From: Anaerolineae bacterium
GTDB lineage: Bacteria; Chloroflexota; Anaerolineae; Aggregatilineales; Phototrophicaceae
NCBI GenBank assembly: GCA_025454525.1
Contig: JALOOG010000052.1
Coordinates: 1 to 48,185, forward strand
Direction: 5' to 3'
DNA length: 48,185 nucleotides
The notes beneath the pieces are model-generated. The model worked only from the letters and a program-made list of their open reading frames with translations, searched no databases and was not told the origin of the DNA. The first letter of the stretch is position 1. Each line of letters opens with the position of its first letter. Shown here in pieces: positions 455-26,811 of the stretch. The translations under genes were made by a program, and so were the position numbers.

Positions 455-1471
455 ATGAACACGCCACACATCGAAGGCCATCAAGTCACCTTTCGCTGGC
501 AAACCACCCAAGCGGACGAAACACCCCCCCTCTTGATCGGGGATTTTAACGATTGGGGCGCTCGTGGCACAGGGGACGCGATCGCGCTCACTCAAACCGC
601 GCCCAACGAATGGACGCACACCCGATCCTTTCCGTCCGATGCTTATATCGAATACAAATTCACCCATGATCCCACTGACCCAAAAGCCGCCGTTTTAGAT
701 CCGAATAATCCGCGCAAAGTCAGTAACGGCATGGGCAAACAGAACAATTATTTACGAATGCCAGACTCGCGTCCGATCGTGATCCCACGCGGGATCAAAC
801 ATGGCAAGATCACTGAACACACGATCCGATCGTTTGCTTTACCTGATGCGGAGCGCCACGTCTGGTTGTATCAACCGCCCGTCGAAACTCCCGCGCCATT
901 GATGATCGTCTATGACGGCCGCGATTACTTGCGCCGTGCCAAGTTACCCGAAGTGATCGATCACCTGATCGCGCAACATCAGATCCCACCCGTGGCCTTA
1001 GCGATGATCGATAATGGCAAAAAATCGCGCTACTTTGAGTATAACAACAGCGAGATGACGCTTTCGATCCTCTTAGAGGCGGTTTTACCTTTAGCACAAC
1101 GGAATTTACAGCTGACCTCACCGGGGGCGTATGGGGTGATCGGCGCGTCTATGGGTGGATTAATGGCGCTGTATACCGCCTTGCGCTTGCCGGGGATCTT
1201 TACGCGGGTGATCAGTCAATCGGGGGCGTTTCTGCTCAAACCCCGCGGCGAAGGCCTGATCGATTACCTGTTAAAGACGCAACCGACACTTCCCTTGAAG
1301 ATCTGGCAGGATGTCGGGGTGTATGAATGGCTGTTAGCGAGTAATCGGGAACTCCATACCACCTTACAAGCGCGGGGATATGAGGTCACTTATCGCGAAT
1401 TTAACGCCGGCCACAATTACACCGCATGGCGCGATCAATTGCCGGAGGCGTTGCGGACGACCTTCGCTTAA
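455..1471 (+). CDS. Putative esterase, Fes/enterochelin-esterase-like alpha/beta hydrolase
   Basis: A 338-residue protein without a signal peptide. Residues about 1-105 resemble the N-terminal CBM48/immunoglobulin-like domain that precedes the catalytic domain in Fes and glycan-related esterases (LLIGDFNDWGA at 27-37). Residues about 115-338 form an alpha/beta hydrolase domain: nucleophile elbow GASMGG with Ser232, and the probable catalytic His320 in AGHNYTAW near the C-terminus, both typical of the putative-esterase (Fes/IroE/antigen 85-like) family. AGGAGC at 441-446 gives a well-spaced ribosome-binding site. The end overlaps by 4 bases (TTAA) the stop of the convergent TPR gene. The substrate cannot be told: siderophore ester, acyl sugar or another ester. 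Confidence 0.8.
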   Translation: MNTPHIEGHQVTFRWQTTQADETPPLLIGDFNDWGARGTGDAIALTQTAPNEWTHTRSFPSDAYIEYKFTHDPTDPKAAVLDPNNPRKVSNGMGKQNNYLRMPDSRPIVIPRGIKHGKITEHTIRSFALPDAERHVWLYQPPVETPAPLMIVYDGRDYLRRAKLPEVIDHLIAQHQIPPVALAMIDNGKKSRYFEYNNSEMTLSILLEAVLPLAQRNLQLTSPGAYGVIGASMGGLMALYTALRLPGIFTRVISQSGAFLLKPRGEGLIDYLLKTQPTLPLKIWQDVGVYEWLLASNRELHTTLQARGYEVTYREFNAGHNYTAWRDQLPEALRTTFA

Positions 1472-2253
1472 CCGCGTGGGAACTTCTTCTTGATCGCCTC
1501 TTGGATCTGACGCGCCGCCCCAAAATCCATTAATGCCAAGGCCCGCCGATTGTGTTCGGCGGCCTTGGGGTAATTTTGCAACCGAAAGTACATCACACTC
1601 ATGTTGTGCCAAGCCCAAGGATTTTGAGGGTTAGACTTGACCACTTGTTCAAACAGCTTGAGCGACTCTTCATATTTGTTGTGCATCAGGTACACGCCGG
1701 CCATCGTCTCGATCAAGGTTTGTCGTTCTTCTTCGTCCGTTGCGAGGGAGAGCGCCTTTTTATAGCGGATCTCCACTTTGCCCAAGTCTTTTTTGCGATC
1801 CCAATAGTTGATCTCGGTCATACACAGCGCATAGGTGATCGGCGTGGTTTTGATCAGGTGATCCAACACCAACCGAGCGTCATCAAAGCGATTCATGTTC
1901 ATGTAGATCACCGCTTCGATCAAATTGATCGCTTGATCATCCGGTTCAAGCGTTTGGGCCTTTTGCAACCAATCCAACGCGATCGCTAAGCCGTCTTGAT
2001 CGTAATCGTCATTCTGTTCAAACGCCGATTTCATGATCGTTTGTGCGATTCCGGCATAAGCGTAAGGTTGCGATCCACACGCAGCGAAAATCCGAAGCGC
2101 GTCTTGTAACACGGCCCGATTGCCTCGATAAGTGTTCAAGATCTTTTTGCCACGCTGATACAGTTGTTTCGCCCGATCCGACGGACGCGGATCGGTGGGC
2201 AAGGTGAGTTGATCGATAAAATTCAGCAGTTGTTTGACGTAATCGTTAGCCAT
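1468..2253 (-). CDS. TPR-repeat protein
   Basis: A 261-residue soluble protein built mostly of tetratricopeptide-like helical pairs. The clearest units are near the C-terminus: LMHNKYEESLKLFEQVV, then NPWAWHNMSVMYFRLQN followed by YPKAAEHNRRALALMD, matching the TPR spacing of small and large residues. Such proteins are protein-interaction scaffolds; no catalytic motif is seen. I chose the ATG at 2253 (MANDYVKQ) rather than an upstream in-frame start at 2307, because a GGGGGA ribosome-binding site lies 8-10 bases before it and the longer form would run into the upstream lipid-kinase gene. It lies 34 bases downstream of that gene on the same strand and is probably cotranscribed with it. Confidence 0.75.
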   Translation of the reverse strand: MANDYVKQLLNFIDQLTLPTDPRPSDRAKQLYQRGKKILNTYRGNRAVLQDALRIFAACGSQPYAYAGIAQTIMKSAFEQNDDYDQDGLAIALDWLQKAQTLEPDDQAINLIEAVIYMNMNRFDDARLVLDHLIKTTPITYALCMTEINYWDRKKDLGKVEIRYKKALSLATDEEERQTLIETMAGVYLMHNKYEESLKLFEQVVKSNPQNPWAWHNMSVMYFRLQNYPKAAEHNRRALALMDFGAARQIQEAIKKKFPRG

Positions 2254-2287
2254 AACCCAGATCCCCCTGATGCAAATTATTGTAGCA

Positions 2288-3229
2288 TCAGGCCGGGAGA
2301 GGCACAATCACCCTGACTGCATTCGGCACGACCTCCACCGTCAACGGGTATTGCGCGGTTAACGGTTCACCGTCTAACCCGATGCTTTGACGTTTCCGCC
2401 CGATCACGGTAATTTGACGGCCTTTCCAATGCGGGATCGTTGACCAACGCGCTTTTAGGCGTGGGAACACCGTGCTGAAGGCGCTCCGAAACAGCGAGAG
2501 GATCGTCCCCGGATCGGTGCCACGGAAGATGATCACATCCAACAGGCCATCACTTGGGCTGATCTCTGGCGCTAAGCTCATGTTGGGCAATCCCACATTG
2601 CCGGAATTGCAGATCACACACGACACCCCGCGCACCCGATAGCGTTTGCCGTCAATGGTGATCTTATAACGGGCGCTACGGGAATCGCGGATCGCCCGTA
2701 AGGTGGAAATGATGTAGGCCAATTTGCCCCAACGCTTTTTCTCCTCACGTTCGGCCTTTTGAGTCATGTCCGCTTCGAGTCCGATCCCGACGCGCAACAT
2801 AAAATAGCGATCTCCGTTCACCCGTCCCATATCGATCGATCGCAACGCGGCCTGATTGCCGATCGCGAGGGTGAGCGCCGTCTCTAACGTTTGTGGGATG
2901 CCCAATTCAACCGACATCACGTTGGCGGTGCCGGCCGGCAAGATCGCCAACGGCACCTCTGATCCCATCAGGCCGTGCGCCACTTCCATCACCGTGCCAT
3001 CGCCACCATACGCTGCCACGACATCTGCGCCGGCCGCGATCGCCGTTTGAGCAAAGGCCATCGCATCGCCGTCTTTAGCGGTGACATGCAGCTGATAATG
3101 GAGTCCAGATTTGAGCAAGAGCGCCTCTAAGGCTTCTGGCGGCGCGGGGTTGAGACCAGAAACCGGGTTCATGATCACATGAATCCGGCGAATTTGTGTC
3201 GGGATTGCCTCTAATTGCGGCAGTGTCAT
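2288..3229 (-). CDS. Diacylglycerol kinase-family lipid kinase (YegS-like)
   Basis: A 313-residue protein with the diacylglycerol-kinase catalytic fold: nucleotide-binding NPVSG at 21-25, GGDGTVMEV at 75-83 (the diagnostic GGDGT loop) and LPAGTANVM at 97-105, followed by the beta-sandwich C-terminal domain. Family members phosphorylate diacylglycerol, ceramide, sphingoid bases or other membrane lipids with ATP; the lipid used here cannot be told from sequence. A GAGGCAAC ribosome-binding site precedes the ATG at 3229. It is the first gene of a probable two-gene unit with the TPR protein downstream. Length and motif order are normal for YegS/BmrU-type proteins. Confidence 0.87.
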   Translation of the reverse strand: MTLPQLEAIPTQIRRIHVIMNPVSGLNPAPPEALEALLLKSGLHYQLHVTAKDGDAMAFAQTAIAAGADVVAAYGGDGTVMEVAHGLMGSEVPLAILPAGTANVMSVELGIPQTLETALTLAIGNQAALRSIDMGRVNGDRYFMLRVGIGLEADMTQKAEREEKKRWGKLAYIISTLRAIRDSRSARYKITIDGKRYRVRGVSCVICNSGNVGLPNMSLAPEISPSDGLLDVIIFRGTDPGTILSLFRSAFSTVFPRLKARWSTIPHWKGRQITVIGRKRQSIGLDGEPLTAQYPLTVEVVPNAVRVIVPLPA

Positions 3230-3502
3230 CAGTTGCCTCGCTACTTAGTCCCTTCAGAACAGACTGCAACCGATTAAGACCGATCCCCTTGTGCCACGCG
3301 GGTCAATAGGTGTGGAGAGGGGTGCGGTTTTTCTCGGCTGTTACAACCGACATTATAAAAATGCCGCTTAAGGCTTAGATGAGACTGCGCTCAATATTCA
3401 CCGACTCCATAGCACAAGCCTTAAGAGTCATGAGAGCGGGCGCAACGAAAGCCAATGTTATCATTGCGATTTATTGGAGTAACCGAGAGACGATCTATAC
3501 CA

Positions 3503-3962
3503 TCAGGCCGCTGTGGCTGTCTGATCAATCGCGTCTTGTGTCTGGACAATCAAGTCGATGCTTAAGGTGTTGGTGGGTGCTGGATTAATTGTCGGACTCG
3601 CGATCAACGCCAACGCGGTTTGAGTCTGATTTTCATCATGCGACCGCCCATTGATCCACTGAATCGGCACGAAAATCCCAACAATAAAGATAACGATCAC
3701 CGGGATGACGATGCCAATGATCGGGATTTTGTTTGTGTCATGTTGTGCTTCGGGTATCTGTGATTCAGTCGACATAAGCAAACACTCTAGCCTCATCGAT
3801 CGCTTTGAGGATCTCATCCCACCAGCGATCCCCGCCGATCAAGGTATCGGGACTCTGGTCATACCAGATGTTGAGGTCGGGAAAAGCGACCTTTAATTGT
3901 TCGATCAACGCCTTGGTAAACTCTTGATCAACTCGGCTATACGACACGAATATTTGCGGCAT
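3503..3962 (-). pseudogene. Relic of a TIR-transmembrane protein
   Basis: Two overlapping minus-strand frames lie here. The first (3962-3765, 65 residues) is the first half of a TIR domain: MPQIFVSYSRVDQEFTKAL, then IWYDQ and GGDRWWDEILKAIDEA. It stops before the second half of the fold, so the usual catalytic-glutamate region is missing. The second, best started at ATG 3775 (MSTESQIPEAQ), is in another frame and encodes one strong transmembrane helix (IPIIGIVIPVIVIFIVGIFV) and a Gln/Thr/Ala/Pro-rich linker ending at 3503. TIR, transmembrane helix and low-complexity linker are the usual front half of larger bacterial TIR signalling proteins. This therefore looks like a gene with an internal deletion or frameshift and a lost C-terminus. 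Two separate short functional proteins are less likely. Confidence 0.55.
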
Positions 3963-4378
3963 GATGTGATCTCAAATGATGTAACGATAACGATCGATTA
4001 TGCCAAAGATCGAAGCGGTGCGCTAATAGCGAAAAGATCGGGAGTGGTGAAAGATACGGAGATGAGATCACACTAGAAAGATCAACATATGCCCATATAG
4101 CACGACACAGAAAAGCAAGCGAAGGTAGGTAAACATAAGTTGAGGAGGCAACGCTCCGCTACCGCAAAGTATGCCAGAGCGCCGCTATACATACAGGTTT
4201 ATCTAGTAACGTTTATGGAACGCCGCTCCCGTGGTATTGTTGTGACCACTCCTTGAAATTCAGCATCAATACCATCCGCTCATAAGGCGAGCTATTCCCT
4301 GTGAAAATGTAATCCAATCTCCGCCTCGTACACTTCAAACGGCAATTTTACCGAAACCGTGCTAAGTTTCTATGGCGC
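3963..4378. other. Intergenic region with no convincing gene
   Basis: Lies between the TIR relic and the histidine kinase. No frame has a plausible start, codon use or protein motif, and base composition is more AT-rich than in neighbouring genes. It may hold the original promoter of the TIR gene and degraded sequence. No tRNA-like or clear riboswitch-like fold was found by eye. Confidence 0.4.
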
Positions 4379-4407
4379 TTTACTTTTGACCGCGCTTGAA
4401 TTATAAT
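4379..4407 (+). promoter_or_regulatory. Candidate promoter of the histidine kinase gene
   Basis: A perfect TATAAT at 4402-4407 lies 17 bases after a weak -35-like TTTACT (4379-4384), 33 bases before the ATG of the kinase gene. AGAGGA at 4427-4432 is the ribosome-binding site. Confidence 0.4.
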
Positions 4408-4440
4408 ATGTAATTAATTGCGTAATAGAGGAATGATGGC

Positions 4441-5925
4441 ATGTTCGCGCATCCTCCGAATCGTTGGAAAGGTCTGCTGACTGCGGTGATCGTGGTGTTG
4501 ATCGCCACGGCGATCAAGTCGCTACTGAACCCGCTTTATGGTGTAGAAAGCCCATTTCTGCTGTTTTTTTCGGCAGTGGTGATCAGTGCATGGTTGGGCG
4601 GATTCAGTGCGGGGGTGCTGGCTACAGTGTTAGCGGCGCTGTTGGCAGATTATTTTTTCTTGATCCCTTATTTTTCATTTAATTTGATGCCACATCAGGC
4701 CTTACGTTTGTTAACCTTTATCACGGAAGGGTTGATCATTAGCTTCTTGAGTCATCGCTTTTGGGTCTCGCGTCAACGGGCTGATCACGAATATCAACAA
4801 CGTCTGACTGCGGAACGATCCCTACGGGAAAATGAGGAACAGTTCCGTTTGTTGATCGAAAACGCCACGGAATATGCGATCATCCTGTTAAATGACCAAG
4901 GCCAGATCAACTCATGGAATCGCGGGGCAGAACGGATCACCGGATATGCTAAAGAGGAGGCGATCGGCCAACCGCTAGATCTATTTTATCTGGAAGTGGA
5001 TCGGATCATCGGTCGCCCACAACAAACGCTTAAGGCCGTTGCACGCGATCGCCCGTTTGAACAGGAGATCGAACAGCGTCATAAAACCGGCCGCCACTTT
5101 TACGCGCACCTGTGTTTGACCGCGATCTATAGTGATCAGGGTGAATTGCGCGGTTATTCATTGATCACCCGCGATATTACCGAGCGTAAACAAGCGGCGC
5201 AAGAATTAGAGCGGCGCGTGCGCGAACGCACCGCTCAATTGCATGAGTTAAATCAGCAATTAGAGACATTCGCCTATCGTGTCTCCCATGACCTCGGCGC
5301 ACCGTTGCGCTCCATTCAAGGTTTTACCACCATTCTGTTAGAAGACCACAGCGAAAACCTCAACGGACAAGGGCGCGATTACTTGAGGCGGATCGGCCGT
5401 GGTGCAGAGAAATTAGACCGCTTGGTGAGTGATCTCTTGACCTATAGCCGCTTCAGCTCAGAAAAAGTGCCACTTGAACCCTTAGATCTAGGCGCGATTG
5501 TGGATGACTTGTTGACAAGATTAGGGGTGGATCATGCGATCGATGTGATGCGCCCATTTCCCCCATGTTTAGGGAATCGTGTGATCGTCACGCAAATCTT
5601 ACAAAACTTGATCCACAACGCGCTCACCTATACCTCACCACAGCGCACACCTCAAGTGACGGTCACCACCGAACTTCAGGGTGATCAGCTCCGTATTGTC
5701 GTGAGTGATAATGGGATCGGGATTGCGCCCGCAGATCACGAACGCATTTTTCGGCCCTTTGAGCGCGTCGATCCCCGTTACCCCGGTAGTGGGATCGGGT
5801 TGGCGATTGTCAGTAACGGCATGAAACGCATGAACGGACGTTACGGGCTAGAGTCGGTCTTAGGGGAAGGGAGTCGCTTCTGGTTTGAATTGCCGGCCCT
5901 CGTACCGACCGATCACACCCCCTAA
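4441..5925 (+). CDS. Membrane-bound PAS sensor histidine kinase
   Basis: A 494-residue hybrid-free histidine kinase. Residues about 10-105 hold four hydrophobic segments resembling the DUF4118/KdpD-type membrane domain. A PAS domain follows at about 130-250, with the typical LLIENATEYAIILLN start and a PAC-like end GYSLITRDITERKQ. After a coiled coil comes the HisKA box with phospho-acceptor His283 in VSHDLGAPLRS. The ATPase domain has an N box (NLIHNALTY), G1 box (DNGIGIAP), F box and G2 (GSGIGLAIV). It should autophosphorylate in response to an unknown signal sensed in the membrane or PAS domain. No response regulator is adjacent, so it is an orphan kinase. Its stop overlaps that of the convergent small membrane-protein gene. 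Confidence 0.9.
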   Translation: MFAHPPNRWKGLLTAVIVVLIATAIKSLLNPLYGVESPFLLFFSAVVISAWLGGFSAGVLATVLAALLADYFFLIPYFSFNLMPHQALRLLTFITEGLIISFLSHRFWVSRQRADHEYQQRLTAERSLRENEEQFRLLIENATEYAIILLNDQGQINSWNRGAERITGYAKEEAIGQPLDLFYLEVDRIIGRPQQTLKAVARDRPFEQEIEQRHKTGRHFYAHLCLTAIYSDQGELRGYSLITRDITERKQAAQELERRVRERTAQLHELNQQLETFAYRVSHDLGAPLRSIQGFTTILLEDHSENLNGQGRDYLRRIGRGAEKLDRLVSDLLTYSRFSSEKVPLEPLDLGAIVDDLLTRLGVDHAIDVMRPFPPCLGNRVIVTQILQNLIHNALTYTSPQRTPQVTVTTELQGDQLRIVVSDNGIGIAPADHERIFRPFERVDPRYPGSGIGLAIVSNGMKRMNGRYGLESVLGEGSRFWFELPALVPTDHTP

Positions 5926-8215: not shown

Positions 8216-10033
8216 TTATACACCCGTTAACTGTTCCAGACGATCGACCATTTCAGCCAAAACCGCGAAGGTGGTTTCTACGGCATCCGGACGAGTCATA
8301 TCGACTCCGGCATGTTTGAGCGCGTCTAAGGGATACTTGGCACTGCCCATACTCAAAAATTCGATATAACGTCGGGCTGCGTCCCCGTCACCCGCTAAAA
8401 TGGGGCCCGCCAACGCATGAGCGGCGGAGATGCCCGTGGCATATTGATAGACGTAATATTGGGCGTAGAGGTGGCTGAATTGCGCCCAAGTGATGCCGCT
8501 CTGATCACGCGGGGCGTGTAATTCACTTCCATAGCCTTCTTCAAACAGGTCGGCCATGAGCGTATTCATGTCTTGGGCGGTGAGGCCTTTTCCCTGTTCA
8601 GCGCGGGTGTGGACTTCTAATTCAAAGCGGGCCAAGGTGGGCATGATGAAGAAATAGCGGTGAAAATTGCCCATGGCCTCGTGAATGAGCGCGATCTGGA
8701 AGTCTACATCGTCTTTTTTCGCCTCACGCAAATAAGCGCGAGTCATGGCCTGATTAAAATTCGATGCCACTTCGGCCACGAATAACGAATAGCCGGAATA
8801 GACAGCGGGTTGGGTTTTGCGGGCCAAGTAGCTGTGCATCGAATGGCCCAATTCGTGGGCCAGGGTACTCATCGCGCCCAAGTCGTTATCGTAACTCATC
8901 ATGATAAACGGCATGGTGTCATGAACCCCGCTAGAGAATGCGCCGGCCCGTTTGCCGATGTTCGGATATACGTCTACCCACCGATCTTCAAGGCATCCTT
9001 TTTGCATCGCATCGGCGTAAGCATCGCCTAATGGACGCATTCCGGCCGTGATCCATTCTACGGCCTGTGTGTACGGGACTTGGGGATCACGCGGGGTTAA
9101 GGGGGCCCAAATATCCCACGGGTGTAAGGTGTCTACGCCCAACACACGCCGCCGGATGTTCCAGTATTTGTGCCAAGTGGGGATATTTTGTTTGAAGGTA
9201 TCGATCAAGTTATAGAACACTTCCGACGGGATGTTGTTCTCAAATAACGAGGACTCTAGGCAGGTTTGATAGCCCCGCGCCCGCGCCCGAAAGACATCTT
9301 GTTTGATCGAAGCGCTCAAATTGGCAGCCAAGGTGTTTTTTAGGGCAAGATAAGCGTTTTGATAACTTTCCCACGCGCTTTGACGCAAGGCGCGGTCTTT
9401 GCTCCCGATCAATGTCCAGACGTTGCCTTGACTGATCGGATGTGCGCTGCCGTCACTGGCGATCGCGGGAGAAAAGGTCATATCGGCGCTGGTCAACATG
9501 CCGTAGACGCTGTTAGGAGATCCAAAGGGATCGCTTAAGAGTCCGAGTAATTCTTCCACCTCACCCGAACGGACATGCGCTTGTAAGCGGAATAGGTTAT
9601 GGAGGTAATGGGCGTAATAGGTGAGGCGCGCTTCAGACGCTAACCACATCGTCAAGGTATCATGCCCGATGGCCAGCAGTTCCGGTTGGGCGAAAGCGAT
9701 CGCGCCGCGCACTTGACCGAACAGGTTACGCGCTTGCCCAAAGCGCCCGGTTGCGGCCGCATCGGTGCTATCGCAATTGGTCTCCATGCTGGCATACACA
9801 AACACTTTGCCCGCTAAACGATTTAGGCGATCCGCGGCCTCCATGTAATCGGCTAGGACGGAGGCCCCTTCGGTCAAACGGCCGCGAAAGGCTTGAATCT
9901 GACGGGCCTGCTCTAAAGCTTGTGTGAGTCCTTCTGACCAAGCTTCTAAACTTGGAAAGACGCTTTCGGCGTTCCAAGTATAGGCTTTATCGATCGCGTT
10001 GCGGGGTTGTACCCCCGAATTGATTGATGACAT
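8216..10033 (-). CDS. pepF: Oligoendopeptidase F, M3 family
   Basis: A 605-residue cytoplasmic zinc metallopeptidase of the thimet/oligopeptidase F family. The HELGHSMHSYLA motif near residue 393 supplies the two zinc histidines and the catalytic glutamate, and the helical M3 fold surrounds it (GAFSSGVHDTMPFIMMSY just before). Such enzymes cut short peptides of roughly 7-17 residues, usually in peptide recycling. The ATG at 10033 (MSSINSG) is preferred over a TTG three codons upstream, because AGGGAGAG is 9 bases before the ATG but touches the TTG. Transcription probably starts in the 10.1-10.26 kb spacer, where one promoter-like block belongs to a repeated element. Length is normal. Confidence 0.93.
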   Translation of the reverse strand: MSSINSGVQPRNAIDKAYTWNAESVFPSLEAWSEGLTQALEQARQIQAFRGRLTEGASVLADYMEAADRLNRLAGKVFVYASMETNCDSTDAAATGRFGQARNLFGQVRGAIAFAQPELLAIGHDTLTMWLASEARLTYYAHYLHNLFRLQAHVRSGEVEELLGLLSDPFGSPNSVYGMLTSADMTFSPAIASDGSAHPISQGNVWTLIGSKDRALRQSAWESYQNAYLALKNTLAANLSASIKQDVFRARARGYQTCLESSLFENNIPSEVFYNLIDTFKQNIPTWHKYWNIRRRVLGVDTLHPWDIWAPLTPRDPQVPYTQAVEWITAGMRPLGDAYADAMQKGCLEDRWVDVYPNIGKRAGAFSSGVHDTMPFIMMSYDNDLGAMSTLAHELGHSMHSYLARKTQPAVYSGYSLFVAEVASNFNQAMTRAYLREAKKDDVDFQIALIHEAMGNFHRYFFIMPTLARFELEVHTRAEQGKGLTAQDMNTLMADLFEEGYGSELHAPRDQSGITWAQFSHLYAQYYVYQYATGISAAHALAGPILAGDGDAARRYIEFLSMGSAKYPLDALKHAGVDMTRPDAVETTFAVLAEMVDRLEQLTGV

Positions 10034-10130
10034 CTGGTTCAACTCTCCCTAAGTAAACACTCGCTGAAATGGTGATTGTACCGTGAATCGGGTCAGATGT
10101 GTGGTTTTGCCGATCGGCTGTCGGGGTAAT

Positions 10131-10257
10131 CGCTTCAAAAGACGACAAGGGATCTTGAGGGTGGAACTGACGCGAAAAAGATCACGGATATGAGAACAGC
10201 TATTAGATTTTTTGGGATCGTAGCATGGGAAGTGGAAAAAGTCGTAACAAATGTCAC
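10131..10257 (-). repeat. Degenerate copy B of the repeated element
   Basis: Reading the minus strand from 10257, the sequence starts GACATTTGTTACGACTTTTT and has TGCTACGAT exactly 19 bases after TTACGA, as in copies at 162 and 35577. It ends in TTTTGAAGCG, like the ends of the other two copies. The middle is much shorter and poorly alignable, so the small ORF is not intact. It lies in the pepF/mscS divergent spacer, so the promoter-like block could now serve pepF. Confidence 0.4.
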
Positions 10258-10266
10258 TCCTTCAGT

Positions 10267-10295
10267 TTGCCAAGTAGCGCCCCTCTCATTATGAT
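10267..10295 (+). promoter_or_regulatory. Candidate promoter of the MscS gene
   Basis: TTGCCA (10267-10272) and TATGAT (10290-10295) are separated by 17 bases, 29 bases before the ATG at 10324. AGAGGA supplies the ribosome-binding site. This supports the start at 10324 and not the further upstream start at 10225, which would fall before the promoter. Confidence 0.6.
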
Positions 10296-10323
10296 CGGAG
10301 CATCTAATGAGAGGACGAAGCCG

Positions 10324-11460
10324 ATGTTTTTTGAGCAATTATTCAGCAATCTGAACCCCGAATTTCTGCAATTGGCCCTTACCCGCGTCCTAGCGATTAT
10401 CTTGGCCCTTGTATTGATCTGGGCGTTGCGTCATTTATTGAGTTGGTTGGTGATCCGTCCGTTGCGATTTTTGACCAAGCGCACCAATCAACAATTTGAC
10501 GAAGCGTTGTTAGATGCGAGTGTCGTCCCGGTGCGTTTATTGCTGATCGGTTTATCGCTGTCGGTGAGTGTGGCAATTATGGGACTCAATAATGAGCCGA
10601 CCTTCTGGAATATCATCCAGCAGATCACCCGCACCTTAGTGATTTTGGCGATCATCATCTTCACCTTTAACCTCACCGATCTGATCATCGCGTCGAGTGG
10701 ACGGGTGTTCACGATCACCGGCATCACCTTAGAGGAACGTTTATTGCCGTTTATCCGTGTGGCGATGAAATTTCTGATTATCGCGATCGGCGTGGTGATC
10801 ATTGTGCAGGAATGGGGGTATGATGTCAGCGGTCTAGTGGCCGGGATCGGCTTGGGGGGTCTCGCTTTTTCGTTGGCCGCACAAGACACGGTTGCCAACA
10901 TCTTCGGATTTGTGGCGATTGTGGGTGATCGTCCGTTTAACGTCGGTGATTACATCAAAACGCCCGATGTGGAAGGTGTGGTAGAGCATGTGGGCTTACG
11001 ATCGACTCGTGTCCGTCAGATTGATCAAGCGGTGGTCGCGGTGCCGAATAACAAATTAGCCAATAGCGCGATCTTAAACTGGTCGCGCCTCACAAAGCGG
11101 CGGATCGAATACCTCTTAAAGGTGCGCTATGACACCAGCAGCCCGCAAATGCGATCGTTGGTCGATCGCATCCGACAATTTTTGCAGGCGCAAGAAAAAG
11201 TCGAAAAACAAACCGTGGTGGTGCATTTTATGAACTTTGGTGAAGCTTCGTTAGAGATCTTCATCCGGGCGTATGTCAAGATCGCTGAATGGAATGCGTT
11301 TGTGGCCGAACAAGAGCGCATCAACCTGTCGATTATGGATATCGTGAACAACATGGGCTTGAATATCGCTTTGCCCGCGCAAATTTTGTATGTCGAAAAT
11401 ACCAGTGATGAAGCGGTGTTTGATCAAGACAATCCTGCGACAAAATCGGACACCAAGTGA
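10324..11460 (+). CDS. MscS-family mechanosensitive ion channel
   Basis: A 378-residue inner-membrane protein. Hydrophobic segments lie at about 15-40, 70-90, 100-125 and 145-165. The pore-lining helix and beta domain have the MscS signature (GIGLGGLAFSLAAQDTVANI, then GDRPFNVGDYI and the conserved PNNKLANSAILNWS). It should open on membrane stretch to release solutes during hypo-osmotic shock. Start ATG 10324 (MFFEQLFSN) follows a promoter and a good ribosome-binding site; an upstream in-frame start at 10225 would add residues with no membrane or MscS character. The C-terminal cytosolic alpha/beta part is complete. Confidence 0.92.
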   Translation: MFFEQLFSNLNPEFLQLALTRVLAIILALVLIWALRHLLSWLVIRPLRFLTKRTNQQFDEALLDASVVPVRLLLIGLSLSVSVAIMGLNNEPTFWNIIQQITRTLVILAIIIFTFNLTDLIIASSGRVFTITGITLEERLLPFIRVAMKFLIIAIGVVIIVQEWGYDVSGLVAGIGLGGLAFSLAAQDTVANIFGFVAIVGDRPFNVGDYIKTPDVEGVVEHVGLRSTRVRQIDQAVVAVPNNKLANSAILNWSRLTKRRIEYLLKVRYDTSSPQMRSLVDRIRQFLQAQEKVEKQTVVVHFMNFGEASLEIFIRAYVKIAEWNAFVAEQERINLSIMDIVNNMGLNIALPAQILYVENTSDEAVFDQDNPATKSDTK

Positions 11461-11529
11461 TAGCGCGTCTACTCATCTGGTGTTAAACTTAACCACAAAA
11501 GAGCGGTAACACACGTTTGGGATGATGTT

Positions 11530-13584
11530 ATGTTAACCACAGTTGAAAAAATGATCTTTGTAATGCTGGCGCTATTTTCGATCGGCGCGACCTATGCGGG
11601 CTTCCGTGAAATGTGGTTGATCGTGAATCGAGGTGAAGGTCAATTGCACCTCGATCATTTGTTACAACGCGCTTGGAAGGCCTTGCGAATTTATCTGACT
11701 CAAAGCACCACCCTAAAAACCCGTCGAATCACGAGCTTGTTTCATCTGGCCGTGGTGTGGGGGTTCACCTTTTACTTTTTGGTCAATGTGTTAGATCTGT
11801 TGATCGGCTTTATCCCCGCCTTTGATGAGACACTCAAACAAGGCGGGATCTTCTACAATGTCTATCGGTTATTGGCAGATGTGTTGAGCGCGGCGGTATT
11901 GATTGGCGTGAGTTACTTTATCTTGCGTCGGTTTGTCTTGCCACAACGTAAAGAGTTGACCTTCCATGAGAATGTGTTACTGCATCCTAAAGTGGCGGAG
12001 GGTGCGGTCTGGCAAGATTCGCTCTTGGTGGCGGTGTTCATCTTGATCCACGTCGGCGCTCGCCTCGTCGGTGAGATCGCCTTGGTGGCCCAAGTGGGTG
12101 AGCCGGATCTCTGGATGCCGTTTGCCACTGGAGGATCGCTGTTATTTGCGGGGTGGTCACATGATGCGTTACAGATCGTGCGTCATCTCGGTTGGTGGAT
12201 CGCCTTAGGCGCGATCTTGATCTTCACGCCCTATTTTCCGTACACCAAACACGCGCATCTGTTTATGGCCCCGCTGAATTTCTTGACGAAACCGCATCGC
12301 ACCTCCTTAGGCGCATTAGATCCACTCAACTTTGAGGACGAAAAGATCGAACAATTCGGGGTCAAGACCTTCTCGGATCTGCCAAAAACGCACATCATGG
12401 ACGCTTATGCGTGTATCCAATGCAATCGCTGTCAGGATGTATGTCCGGCGTATGTCACCGGAAAGGAACTTTCCCCTTCGGCCTTAGAGATCAACAAGCG
12501 TTATCTGCTTAAAGAAAACCCAAGTGGTTTTGCCGAAGGCGCGGATATGCCGCCCTTGATGAATTTTGCGATCAGTCAATCGGCGGTATGGGCGTGTACA
12601 TCATGCGGTGCGTGCATCGACATTTGTCCGGTGGGCAATGAGCCGATGTTTGACATCCTCAATATTCGGCGCGATCAGGTGTTAATGGAAGCGGATTTTC
12701 CGAAAGAATTGGAACGCGCCTTCAAGGGCATGGAGCGGCAAGGCAACCCGTGGCAGATCGCCGAGAGTCGTTTCCGGTGGGCCAATGGCCTTGATTTCCC
12801 CGTGCCGACGGTGGATGAAAACCCGAATTTTGAGATTCTCTACTGGGTGGGATGCGCCGCCAGTTATGACGCACGCGCTCAATTGACCGCCCGCGCCTTA
12901 GTCAAGGTGTTACATCGTGCCGGGGTCAATTTCGCGGTCTTGGGTGAAATGGAAAACTGCACGGGGGATTCGGCCCGGCGTGCTGGCAAGGAAGACCTCT
13001 ATTTTGAGTTAGCGACGCAAAATGTCGAGACGCTGAACAATGTCAAACCGCCGCGGATCGTGGTGACTTGCCCGCATTGTTTCCATAATATCGGCAAGGA
13101 ATATCAACAATTCGGCGGACAGTATGAGGTGGTGCATCACACCGAATTGATCGAAGAATTGATCACCGCCGGACGGATTCCATCGACCGCGCATCCCAGC
13201 AAACAGCCCAACGTCACCTTCCACGATCCCTGCTACTTGGGGCGACATAACGGTGTGATCGATGAACCGCGCACCGTGTTAAATCAGTTGGGGGTGGATC
13301 TGGTGGAGATGCCGCGCACCAAGAAAAACTCCTTCTGTTGTGGGGCGGGGGGCGCGCAATTTTGGAAAGAAGAAGAACACGGGACAAAAGCAGTCAACGT
13401 CGAACGGTATGAAGAGGCCAAACACACCGGCGCAGAGATCGTCGCAGTTGGTTGTCCGTTCTGTATGCAGATGTTCGAGTCCGCAAAATCAGAAGTGCCA
13501 GATGGCCCGATCGTGAAAGATGTGGTGGAATTGATCGCCGAACGACTTGGTGATCCCAAACCTGCGATCGCGGCCGGCGATTAA
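11530..13584 (+). CDS. EtfD/EMO-like membrane Fe-S oxidoreductase (HdrD-related)
   Basis: A 684-residue fusion. Residues 1-250 form a membrane domain resembling the gamma subunit of nitrate reductase, with several helices and candidate heme histidines. Two 4Fe-4S motifs follow: CIQCNRCQDVC (Cys295, 298, 301, 305) and CTSCGACIDIC (Cys356, 359, 362, 366). The C-terminus has two HdrD/GlcF-type cysteine-rich CCG domains (VTCPHCFHNIG; NSFCCGAGGAQFW and VGCPFCMQMF). This is the architecture of EtfD-type electron-transfer-flavoprotein:menaquinone oxidoreductases, which pass electrons from acyl-CoA dehydrogenases via ETF into the quinone pool. That role is inferred; no etfAB is adjacent. Other HdrD-like electron carriers share the layout. 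Confidence 0.82.
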   Translation: MLTTVEKMIFVMLALFSIGATYAGFREMWLIVNRGEGQLHLDHLLQRAWKALRIYLTQSTTLKTRRITSLFHLAVVWGFTFYFLVNVLDLLIGFIPAFDETLKQGGIFYNVYRLLADVLSAAVLIGVSYFILRRFVLPQRKELTFHENVLLHPKVAEGAVWQDSLLVAVFILIHVGARLVGEIALVAQVGEPDLWMPFATGGSLLFAGWSHDALQIVRHLGWWIALGAILIFTPYFPYTKHAHLFMAPLNFLTKPHRTSLGALDPLNFEDEKIEQFGVKTFSDLPKTHIMDAYACIQCNRCQDVCPAYVTGKELSPSALEINKRYLLKENPSGFAEGADMPPLMNFAISQSAVWACTSCGACIDICPVGNEPMFDILNIRRDQVLMEADFPKELERAFKGMERQGNPWQIAESRFRWANGLDFPVPTVDENPNFEILYWVGCAASYDARAQLTARALVKVLHRAGVNFAVLGEMENCTGDSARRAGKEDLYFELATQNVETLNNVKPPRIVVTCPHCFHNIGKEYQQFGGQYEVVHHTELIEELITAGRIPSTAHPSKQPNVTFHDPCYLGRHNGVIDEPRTVLNQLGVDLVEMPRTKKNSFCCGAGGAQFWKEEEHGTKAVNVERYEEAKHTGAEIVAVGCPFCMQMFESAKSEVPDGPIVKDVVELIAERLGDPKPAIAAGD

Positions 13585-24935: not shown

Positions 24936-26756
24936 ATGCTGCCCAAGACCAAACGTTTATTCATCAGCTATCGCTCTAAGGACTCCGCCCAAGTCGATCG
25001 GATCGCGCACCATTTGCGCTTGCTCACCTATGACGACGGCACAGCGCGTTACATCCCATGGCAAGACAAACGTGATCTCACGTCCGGCGTGACAAATTGG
25101 TGGGACGCGATCTTGGATGCGATTGAAGCGAGTGATCTGTTTGTGTTTCATCTCACTTTGGAAAGCGTAAAAAGTGAGCTATGCCGGGCGGAATTGGATT
25201 ACGCTTATCAGCTCAACTTGCCGATCGTCGTGGTGGTGTTAGAAGGCGCGTATACGTCGATCTCCGAATCAGGGAATTATCAAGTGAAGGATGAGATCCA
25301 AGCGCTGCTTCCAAAGTGGATACATCAAACACAATGGTTGTTTTACCACGGGCCGGCGGAGTTTTTCATCCGCTTTCAGATGGCCGTCGAATACCATGAG
25401 CAAAAATGGCTAGGTAGGACTCCTGCTAAACGGCCGTTGCATCCTGGGAGCGGTCATACTTATAACAATCCTTATGATCTGTACGATGAAGCGTGTGAGT
25501 GTGCGTATAAATTAGATTTTAAAGAGGCGGAAGATTTATTTCGTCAATTGGTGCGACGTAACCTCGCTGATTTTGCTGATATTGCCAAACAATGGCTTGA
25601 ACTCTTGCAACGCTACGATGAATTGATCCTTATCGACTCCAAACCCCGCACACGGTTTAAGTTTAAGGAAAAATGGGACGTATATAGGACTCTATTCCCC
25701 AAAAATTTTTTAGACGATGGTGAGATCTTCGATCCAAAAGGCTTTGCCACACGCAATCATGTATCAGAACCTCCGCCCCCACCGCCGATCGTAAAACCCG
25801 TTGATGTGATCACGACTCCGCCGCCCTCACCGATCACGACCCCGGCTAAGGTCACTGCACCCGCGCCGAATGAACCTAAAGCTAAGGAAGTCCCGCCAGT
25901 CATAAAACCTGTTAATAACGCCACGACTCCGCCACCCTCACCGATCGCTACACCCGCGCCTAGTGATTCTAAGGCTAGGGAAGTCCCGCCGATCGTAAAA
26001 CCCCGTAGCCAAGATCTAATGCCCGCGCCGTTTGCATGGATCGAAATTCCGGGCGGGCAAGGAACGATGCAGACAAATCAAGCCAAAGTAACACTCACAA
26101 TTCCCACCGAACGCTATTGGATCGCCAAGTATCCAGTGACTAACGCGCAATATGCCGTGTTTATCAACGACGGCGGGTATCAAGAGAAAAAGTGGTGGAC
26201 GGAACGCGGGTGGCAAGCACAGAAAAAGGAAAACAGGACTGAGCCGCGTTTTTGGCACAAACCCCCTTGGAACCAAGGGGATCATCCGGTGGTCGGAATC
26301 TCATGGTTTGAGGCGGTCGCGTTTTGTCTGTGGTTAAGCGATCAGACGGCCGAAACGATCATGTTACCGACAGAGGCGCAATGGCAATATGCTGCACAGG
26401 GAAACTATCGGCGTGTTTATCCTTGGGGGAATGAATGGGATTGTCAGCGGTGTAATAACTCGGTCATTCCATGTAATAGCCGGCAGACCACCGCAGTTAC
26501 GCACTATGAAGGCAAGGGAGATAGCCCGTTTGGGGTGGTGGATATGGCCGGTAACGTTCAGGAGTGGTGTTTGACAGATTATAAAACGAATAAAAATGAT
26601 ATTACATTAGACGCGGATTATCGCGTGCTTCGCGGCGGGGCGTGGTACTTCAGCTATACCGACTACTTCCGCTGTGGTTACCGCGATGGGTACGACCCAC
26701 ATTACTGGTACAACGACAGGGGCTTCCGTCTTTCTCGCTCTGGTTCTTTGTTCTGA
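24936..26756 (+). CDS. TIR-domain protein with C-terminal FGE/C-type-lectin-like domain; candidate DGR target
   Basis: A 606-residue protein. Residues 5-140 are a TIR domain (KRLFISYRSKDSAQV, WWDAILDAIEASDLFVF, then SELCRAELDYA with Glu86 at the NADase catalytic-glutamate position). Residues about 165-255 are helical. About 275-365 is a Pro/Thr/Lys-rich linker with two or three copies of a unit containing TTPPPSPI. Residues 370-606 are a formylglycine-generating-enzyme/sulfatase-modifying-factor domain, which has the C-type-lectin fold: ERYWIAKYPVTNAQYAVFIN, GNVQEWC, RVLRGGAW and a terminal GFR. The region between RGGAW and GFR has the codon pattern of a DGR variable region (see separate entry). 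Model: variable ligand sensing by the lectin-like domain controls TIR NAD-cleaving or signalling activity. Domain calls are strong; diversification and defence roles are inferred. No sulfatase is adjacent. Confidence 0.85.
   Translation: MLPKTKRLFISYRSKDSAQVDRIAHHLRLLTYDDGTARYIPWQDKRDLTSGVTNWWDAILDAIEASDLFVFHLTLESVKSELCRAELDYAYQLNLPIVVVVLEGAYTSISESGNYQVKDEIQALLPKWIHQTQWLFYHGPAEFFIRFQMAVEYHEQKWLGRTPAKRPLHPGSGHTYNNPYDLYDEACECAYKLDFKEAEDLFRQLVRRNLADFADIAKQWLELLQRYDELILIDSKPRTRFKFKEKWDVYRTLFPKNFLDDGEIFDPKGFATRNHVSEPPPPPPIVKPVDVITTPPPSPITTPAKVTAPAPNEPKAKEVPPVIKPVNNATTPPPSPIATPAPSDSKAREVPPIVKPRSQDLMPAPFAWIEIPGGQGTMQTNQAKVTLTIPTERYWIAKYPVTNAQYAVFINDGGYQEKKWWTERGWQAQKKENRTEPRFWHKPPWNQGDHPVVGISWFEAVAFCLWLSDQTAETIMLPTEAQWQYAAQGNYRRVYPWGNEWDCQRCNNSVIPCNSRQTTAVTHYEGKGDSPFGVVDMAGNVQEWCLTDYKTNKNDITLDADYRVLRGGAWYFSYTDYFRCGYRDGYDPHYWYNDRGFRLSRSGSLF
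26643..26729 (+). other. Candidate DGR variable region (VR)
   Basis: Between the Trp codon at 26643 and the GGC TTC CGT (Gly-Phe-Arg) at 26721-26729 lie 25 codons. Twenty-one end in C or T, 16 of them in C. They encode Y,F,S,Y,T,D,Y,F then R,C,G, then Y,R,D,G,Y,D,P,H,Y,W,Y,N,D,R. Adenine-directed mutagenesis of template AAC/AAT codons yields just such NNC/NNT sets, and FGE-type lectin proteins are the commonest DGR targets, with the VR at this position. The matching template repeat and reverse transcriptase are not in the window. Confidence 0.6.
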
Positions 26757-26811
26757 ATTCTGAAGTTCTGTTTTCTGTTTTCTGATGTTCTTAGCCCCTC
26801 GCCGAAGGCGA
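26730..26811 (+). other. IMH-like tail and small hairpin after the variable region
   Basis: After GFR the sequence turns into repeated TTCTG/TCTGTTTTCTG units that span the stop codon (26754-26756) and continue about 30 bases beyond it. A small hairpin follows: TCGCC (26799-26803), GAA, GGCGA (26807-26811). In DGRs the VR is followed by an initiation-of-mutagenic-homing sequence and often a hairpin. The position fits; the function is inferred. Confidence 0.4.

Follow-up and report, generated by a model that had tools for sequence, protein, structure and literature searches.

A TIR-FGE protein from an Anaerolineae genome as a very probable remote target of a DGR whose template is shared by at least four receptors

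The window analysed here, a stretch of 48,185 nucleotides on contig C76 of a draft Anaerolineae genome (5.24 Mb, 230 contigs), carries a gene for a 606-aa protein, P0001, in which a TIR domain is joined to an FGE/C-type-lectin-fold domain (Table 1). Judging from its match to a template repeat (TR), the gene is very probably a remote (trans) target of a diversity-generating retroelement (DGR) that lies elsewhere in this genome, on contig C13. Moreover, it is one of at least four TIR-FGE receptors that draw on a single template, TR1. In P0001, a hypervariable sensor is most likely joined to a predicted TIR NADase without an NTPase in between.

Table 1. Features of the P0001 gene and its downstream region in the window
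Feature	Position	Strand	Basis
P0001, TIR-FGE ORF, 606 aa, very probable remote DGR target	24936..26756	+	ORF and Pfam
TIR domain, TIR_2, aa 9-104	24960..25247	+	Pfam, E 2.6e-14
Glu86 codon, catalytic-position residue of the P0001 TIR	25191-25193	+	Paralog sequences and L040 alignment
TPR-like, putatively helical region between TIR and linker, aa 179-268 approximately, present in paralogs and L040	25470..25739	+	Alignment
Pro-rich linker, PPPSPI.TPA block repeated	25764..26000	+	Sequence
FGE / C-type-lectin-fold domain, FGE-sulfatase PF03781, aa 368-599	26037..26732	+	Pfam, E 1.4e-44
Variable repeat (VR), 116 bp	26622..26737	+	TR match at C13:8947-9062(-)
Stretch holding TR-adenine positions	26646..26718	+	VR/TR alignment
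TCTG-rich run directly 3' of VR, common to other targets	26751..26784	+	Sequence comparison
Hairpin TCGCC-GAA-GGCGA, +62 from VR end, candidate target-recognition element	26799..26811	+	Comparison and BPP-1 precedent (PMC3240598)

Between RGGAW and GFR in P0001, 21 of the 25 codons are of the type NNC or NNT, as the sequence-only reading had counted, against 50% in the remaining ORF (P = 5e-4). By itself this bias is a weak, merely suggestive sign of DGR diversification; a codon-bias artefact was considered as the source of the DGR signal and rejected, the match to the template being what decides. That match is exact wherever TR1 has no adenine (82/82 positions), and each of the 16 mismatches falls on a TR1 adenine, so that 16 of the 34 TR1 adenines are altered (first at 26646, last at 26715). 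For 16/16 mismatches placed on 34 adenines among 116 positions, the hypergeometric probability is 1.3e-10. The DGR diversification proposed earlier for P0001 is thus borne out, and so is the existence of a template copy that differs only at adenines. The extent foreseen for the match, 26640-26811, has to be corrected to 26622-26737, as positions 26738-26811 lie outside the TR and form a separate downstream element, a TCTG-rich run with a hairpin, that is common to the targets. The adenines of TR1 hit 21 codons, which amounts to some 1.35e19 protein variants, and a stop codon is unreachable. To call the resulting specificity 'programmable', as had been done, is an overstatement: the mechanism randomises adenine codons and programs no specificity.

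The cassette on C13 has the order TIR-FGE target, RT, Avd, TR1. The RT of the DGR clade that had been postulated for this genome carries IGNQTSQ at 201 and YVDD at 233 (a DGR-type RT being defined here by the motif [LIV]GxxxSQ together with YxDD) and is matched by RVT_1. The avd gene, postulated likewise, encodes a protein that scores 94.1 bits against NCBIfam NF033474 (DivGenRetAVD, cut-off 80) and is also matched by Pfam bAvd, PF22296. TR1 is non-coding and starts 20 nt past the avd stop. A second RT-Avd locus of the genome is situated on C207, and both RTs have the motifs IGN[QL]TSQ and YVDD. The C207 DGR has its own template, TR2; agreement with it at non-adenine positions is 78/78 for a local VR and 76/78 for a remote one on C72. 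Two further RTs, for neither of which an Avd was found, were rejected as DGR RTs: that of C32 has QGAPTSP in place of the SQ motif, and that of C192 is long and divergent. A third set of DGR-like VRs (C125:13098-13223+, C40:8747-8872- and C195:3328-3453-; loci L073, L077 and L079) shows mutual agreement at the constant positions, and one of its members sits on a TIR-FGE gene. The C40 and C195 members have the hairpin ttgggggg[TAT]ccccccaa in common, and no TR or RT for the set was found in the assembly.

The targets of both TR1 and TR2 carry, past the VR, a TCTG-rich run and then a small stem-loop whose loop reads GAA, at about 54-62 bp from the VR end. This hairpin (stem of 5-6 bp, GAA triloop) is seen in four of four TR1 targets and two of two TR2 targets, and the target on C13 has a pair of them, at +61 and +82. 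Between targets the stem sequence varies with its pairing kept (TCGCC/GGCGA vs TCGGC/GCCGA vs CCCGC/GCGGG); in two paralogs outside the target set, C5 and C160c, the element is mispaired and absent, respectively. In the DGR of the Bordetella phage BPP-1, which likewise comprises RT, Avd, a TR/VR pair and a hairpin 3' of the VR, that hairpin (7-10 bp stem, GRNA tetraloop, located 4-34 bp past the VR) is needed for homing; the sequence of its stem may change freely, whereas that of its loop is constrained (Guo et al. 2011, PMC3240598). By analogy, the hairpin found here, at +54 to +62, is likely but unproven to be equivalent; we go no further than likely because its stem is shorter and its loop is not GRNA. 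The two DGRs also differ in their targets, a TIR protein here and a phage tail protein in BPP-1.

The architecture described in the sequence-only reading, a TIR domain with Glu86, a repeated Pro-rich linker and an FGE/CLec domain, is indeed present in the 606-aa ORF. TIR_2 and FGE-sulfatase make up its entire Pfam content, and the Pfam scan of the protein found no STAND/NACHT NTPase and no MoxR-vWA. Glu86 sits within the motif CRAELDYA, and in sequence comparisons the position is kept in all four diversified TIR-FGE paralogs as well as in L040, a locus from an Anaerolineae MAG that shares the TIR domain, the middle region and the linker with P0001. The NADase activity of P0001 is predicted from this one conserved Glu. 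The only model for the secondary structure of the middle region was of low confidence (pLDDT 36, two input sequences) and was left unused. Residues 474-600 match the variable protein TvpA of Treponema denticola (2y3c, E 5.4e-11), a DGR target with a solved structure. A scan of genome collections for P0001 returned one relative, the aforementioned L040, which is cut within its FGE domain. No P0001 relative was found in viral contigs, 13 of which encode relatives of the RT that are at most 49% identical.

From established DGR biology, the RNA of the TR would be copied by RT and Avd with errors at adenines, and the cDNA would replace the VR in trans at those targets that have constant VR ends and the downstream hairpin. 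In the FGE/C-type-lectin domain, the side that contacts the ligand would be made up of the 21 variable codons. A non-self ligand, from an invader or of other origin and probably bound in a multivalent way, would then cluster the protein, which would bring the TIR domains together and activate the TIR NADase, and the ensuing NAD depletion or signal would probably lead to cell death or dormancy. Clustering is the simplest trigger, rather than a STAND switch, because P0001 has no NTPase. We infer that the DGR is active at present and that P0001 has a ligand, and we consider a ligand-triggered TIR effector step reasonably probable.

Antiviral use of P0001 is favoured over signalling or kin recognition. 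The cyanobacterial DGR targets, some of which bear a TIR domain, have been interpreted as signal-transduction proteins (PMC7517822), and the window gene has no phage-linked neighbour. The scanned neighbours encode MFS and LysM proteins (the nearest), G6PD, a class II tRNA synthetase and unassigned proteins; no recognised defence gene was found among them, the ThsA partner of Thoeris is absent beside P0001, and neither a ligand nor a phage link was found for the protein. However, similar TIR domains serve as effectors in a number of anti-phage systems, the PADLOC models for SAVED-TIR and, weakly, ThsB match the TIR part of P0001, and antigen sensing has been proposed for related DGR targets by Dore et al. 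(PMC10907252). We therefore hold it unlikely, albeit worth keeping in mind, that the diversified TIR-FGE proteins act as receptors for signalling or self/kin recognition and not against viruses.

The genome carries many TIR-FGE relatives, and at 82/82 non-adenine positions the TR1 targets comprise the window gene on C76, a gene on C13 and two genes on C160 (C160:223 and C160:9441). Two of these targets run into contig ends, but C69 and C13 share an exact 88-bp overlap and C165 and C160 an exact 99-bp one, and joining each pair yields full TIR-FGE reading frames of 560 and 557 aa, respectively. The joins are based on sequence overlap, and alternative joins were excluded because neither overlap recurs among the FGE loci that were fetched. 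As the C69-C13 overlap restores a full ORF, the gene immediately upstream of RT, Avd and TR1 on C13 is itself a TIR-FGE gene. Taken together, the four VRs match TR1 at 328/328 non-adenine positions and differ from it at 67 of 136 adenine positions; all 37 non-adenine third-codon positions per gene agree with the template. The FGE DNA just 5' of the VR is only 69.7-76.8% identical among the four targets (dS 0.82-3.15). Since the non-adenine match is perfect despite this divergence of the adjacent FGE DNA, the template was copied into the VRs anew well after the genes had separated. Outside the VR, the four targets are anciently diverged and under purifying selection, with dN of 0.18-0.40 versus dS of 0.74-3.15 for the TIR and FGE parts and a TIR dN/dS between paralogs of roughly 0.2-0.3.

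Two paralogs constitute natural controls for the ordinary evolution of the VR-equivalent region. C160c, which a gap of 77 bp separates from a perfect target, differs from TR1 at 30/82 non-adenine positions; C5 differs at 24/82, and a stop codon interrupts it between TIR and FGE. The two findings that would have counted against the DGR reading of P0001, a genome lacking a DGR RT or TR and an ordinarily evolving VR, were looked for and did not turn up; ordinary evolution is seen in these two paralogs instead. Their appearance is that of drift, and this bears on the possibility that the DGR formerly diversified the TIR-FGE genes but is now inactive, the VRs being frozen products of past retrohoming. 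Such a state would be compatible with the dead or eroded members of the family (the stop codon of C5, the VR loss of C180 and a relic at 3421-3962(-) in the window) and with a data set that consists of a single draft genome. We nevertheless regard it as improbable, considering that four VRs hold 82/82 template identity with nearby synonymous sites near saturation, and that RT, Avd and TR are all intact. Ordinary gene conversion or recent paralog duplication, conceivable in that the TIR-FGE genes are paralogs within one genome, has a negligible probability and is ruled out by differences confined to TR adenines and by diverged flanks (the coding sequence just upstream is 23-30% divergent), one of the matching copies moreover being the non-coding TR.

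Several individual loci of the genome deserve mention. The tandem TIR-FGE genes of L015, at 11142-12761(-) and 9416-11065(-) with a spacing of 77 bp, comprise one perfect DGR target and one gene with a drifting VR and without the hairpin, and so provide a natural experiment on the determinants of target status. C180:16067+ (L075, about 3068-3105) is a dead TIR-FGE gene, frameshifted and with its VR deleted; its RGGSW codons abut the downstream hairpin, suggesting that the VR was lost via recombination at the target site. The relic in the window, a second gene of the TIR-FGE type, consists of a broken TIR at 3765-3962 (TIR_2, E 1.3e-8) and, some 300 bp beyond it, the FGE tail NDNIGFRCARSHDS. 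Finally, the 67 altered adenines in the TR1 targets (window 26622-26737, L014 and L015) have become T in 34 and G in 33 cases, and never C. Across a collection of DGR loci from the class, with the local VR of TR1 among them, 93 of the 582 changes are to C; for seven other VRs of this genome and its relatives the number is 12/124, versus 0/67 in the TR1 targets (P 0.009). The lack of C at TR1 adenines may reflect RT bias or selection.

RTs of the clade seen here are present in 61 of the 298 sampled genomes of the class, and TR/VR pairs were identified in 35 of the 48 RT loci that were fetched. All 33 DGR targets scanned, the window's included, contain FGE, with NACHT in 19 and TIR_2 in six, counts that describe the fetched loci and not an even sample. 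The commoner DGR target in the class is NACHT/STAND-FGE, and these domain counts make compact TIR-FGE a minority design beside it; local targets of this compact form, each with a TR/VR pair of its own, are found in G014 (two) and G043. Other combinations are exemplified by L101, where the target at 661-4767(+) is a 1368-aa fusion of DUF4062, protein kinase, NACHT and FGE and the TR lies between target and RT, not 3' of Avd, and by L146 of genome G288, where the target at 806-2605(+) has a caspase-like start joined to FGE, the only Peptidase_C14 match among the 33 scanned targets.

DGR-diversified sensors of conflict systems, some with TIR, have been published for other multicellular bacteria, and filamentous chloroflexi are among the reported RT hosts (PMC10907252). 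Those systems are similar to the present one in having a DGR RT, an accessory protein and a TR, a C-terminal CLec/FGE VR, effector domains that include TIR (the DGR 2 target has CHAT and TIR), targets diversified in trans, and several DGRs per genome. Here, in contrast, TIR is fused to FGE without NTPase, CHAT, vWA or MoxR, and at least four TIR-FGE genes depend on one TR; for PB-PSB1 there are published population data, whereas the window case is one genome. Cyanobacterial DGRs (PMC7517822) also have remote VPs, at VR-like 3' ends of CLec genes, and N-terminal TIR-like domains, the latter listed as less common. They belong to another phylum, and remote VPs were called there at >50% TR identity, whereas here all TR1 targets show 100% identity outside the adenine positions. 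In the VMAP / iSTAND ternary conflict systems, FGE (FGS) is likewise found beside TIR effectors and DGRs (Kaur et al. 2020, PMC7159879), but P0001 is without a vWA, MoxR, VMAP or STAND component. No published description of a TIR-FGE family of this class was found in the literature searched, supplementary tables aside.

In bacteria, conflict proteins diversified by DGRs are suspected to be the equivalent of variable immune receptors. The described DGR conflict targets are mostly large multi-part systems, whereas P0001 combines sensor and effector in one protein of 606 aa. Its family offers a canonical TIR, several paralogs per template and non-diversified paralogs as built-in controls, and whether a DGR-randomised lectin domain can trigger TIR is therefore directly testable with small proteins. 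Tentatively, and at somewhat less than even confidence, TR1 may write independent random binding sites into at least four dispersed TIR NADase receptors per cell, alongside further VR families (the TR2 targets and C125/C40/C195), which would provide a heritable and continually renewed repertoire whose receptors kill or arrest the cell when they meet antigen, without the NTPase switch of related systems. The set of TIR-FGE genes that share TR1 looks like a bacterial immune repertoire; such systems have been described already, and among the published DGR-diversified conflict sensors the P0001 family is an unusually clean example.
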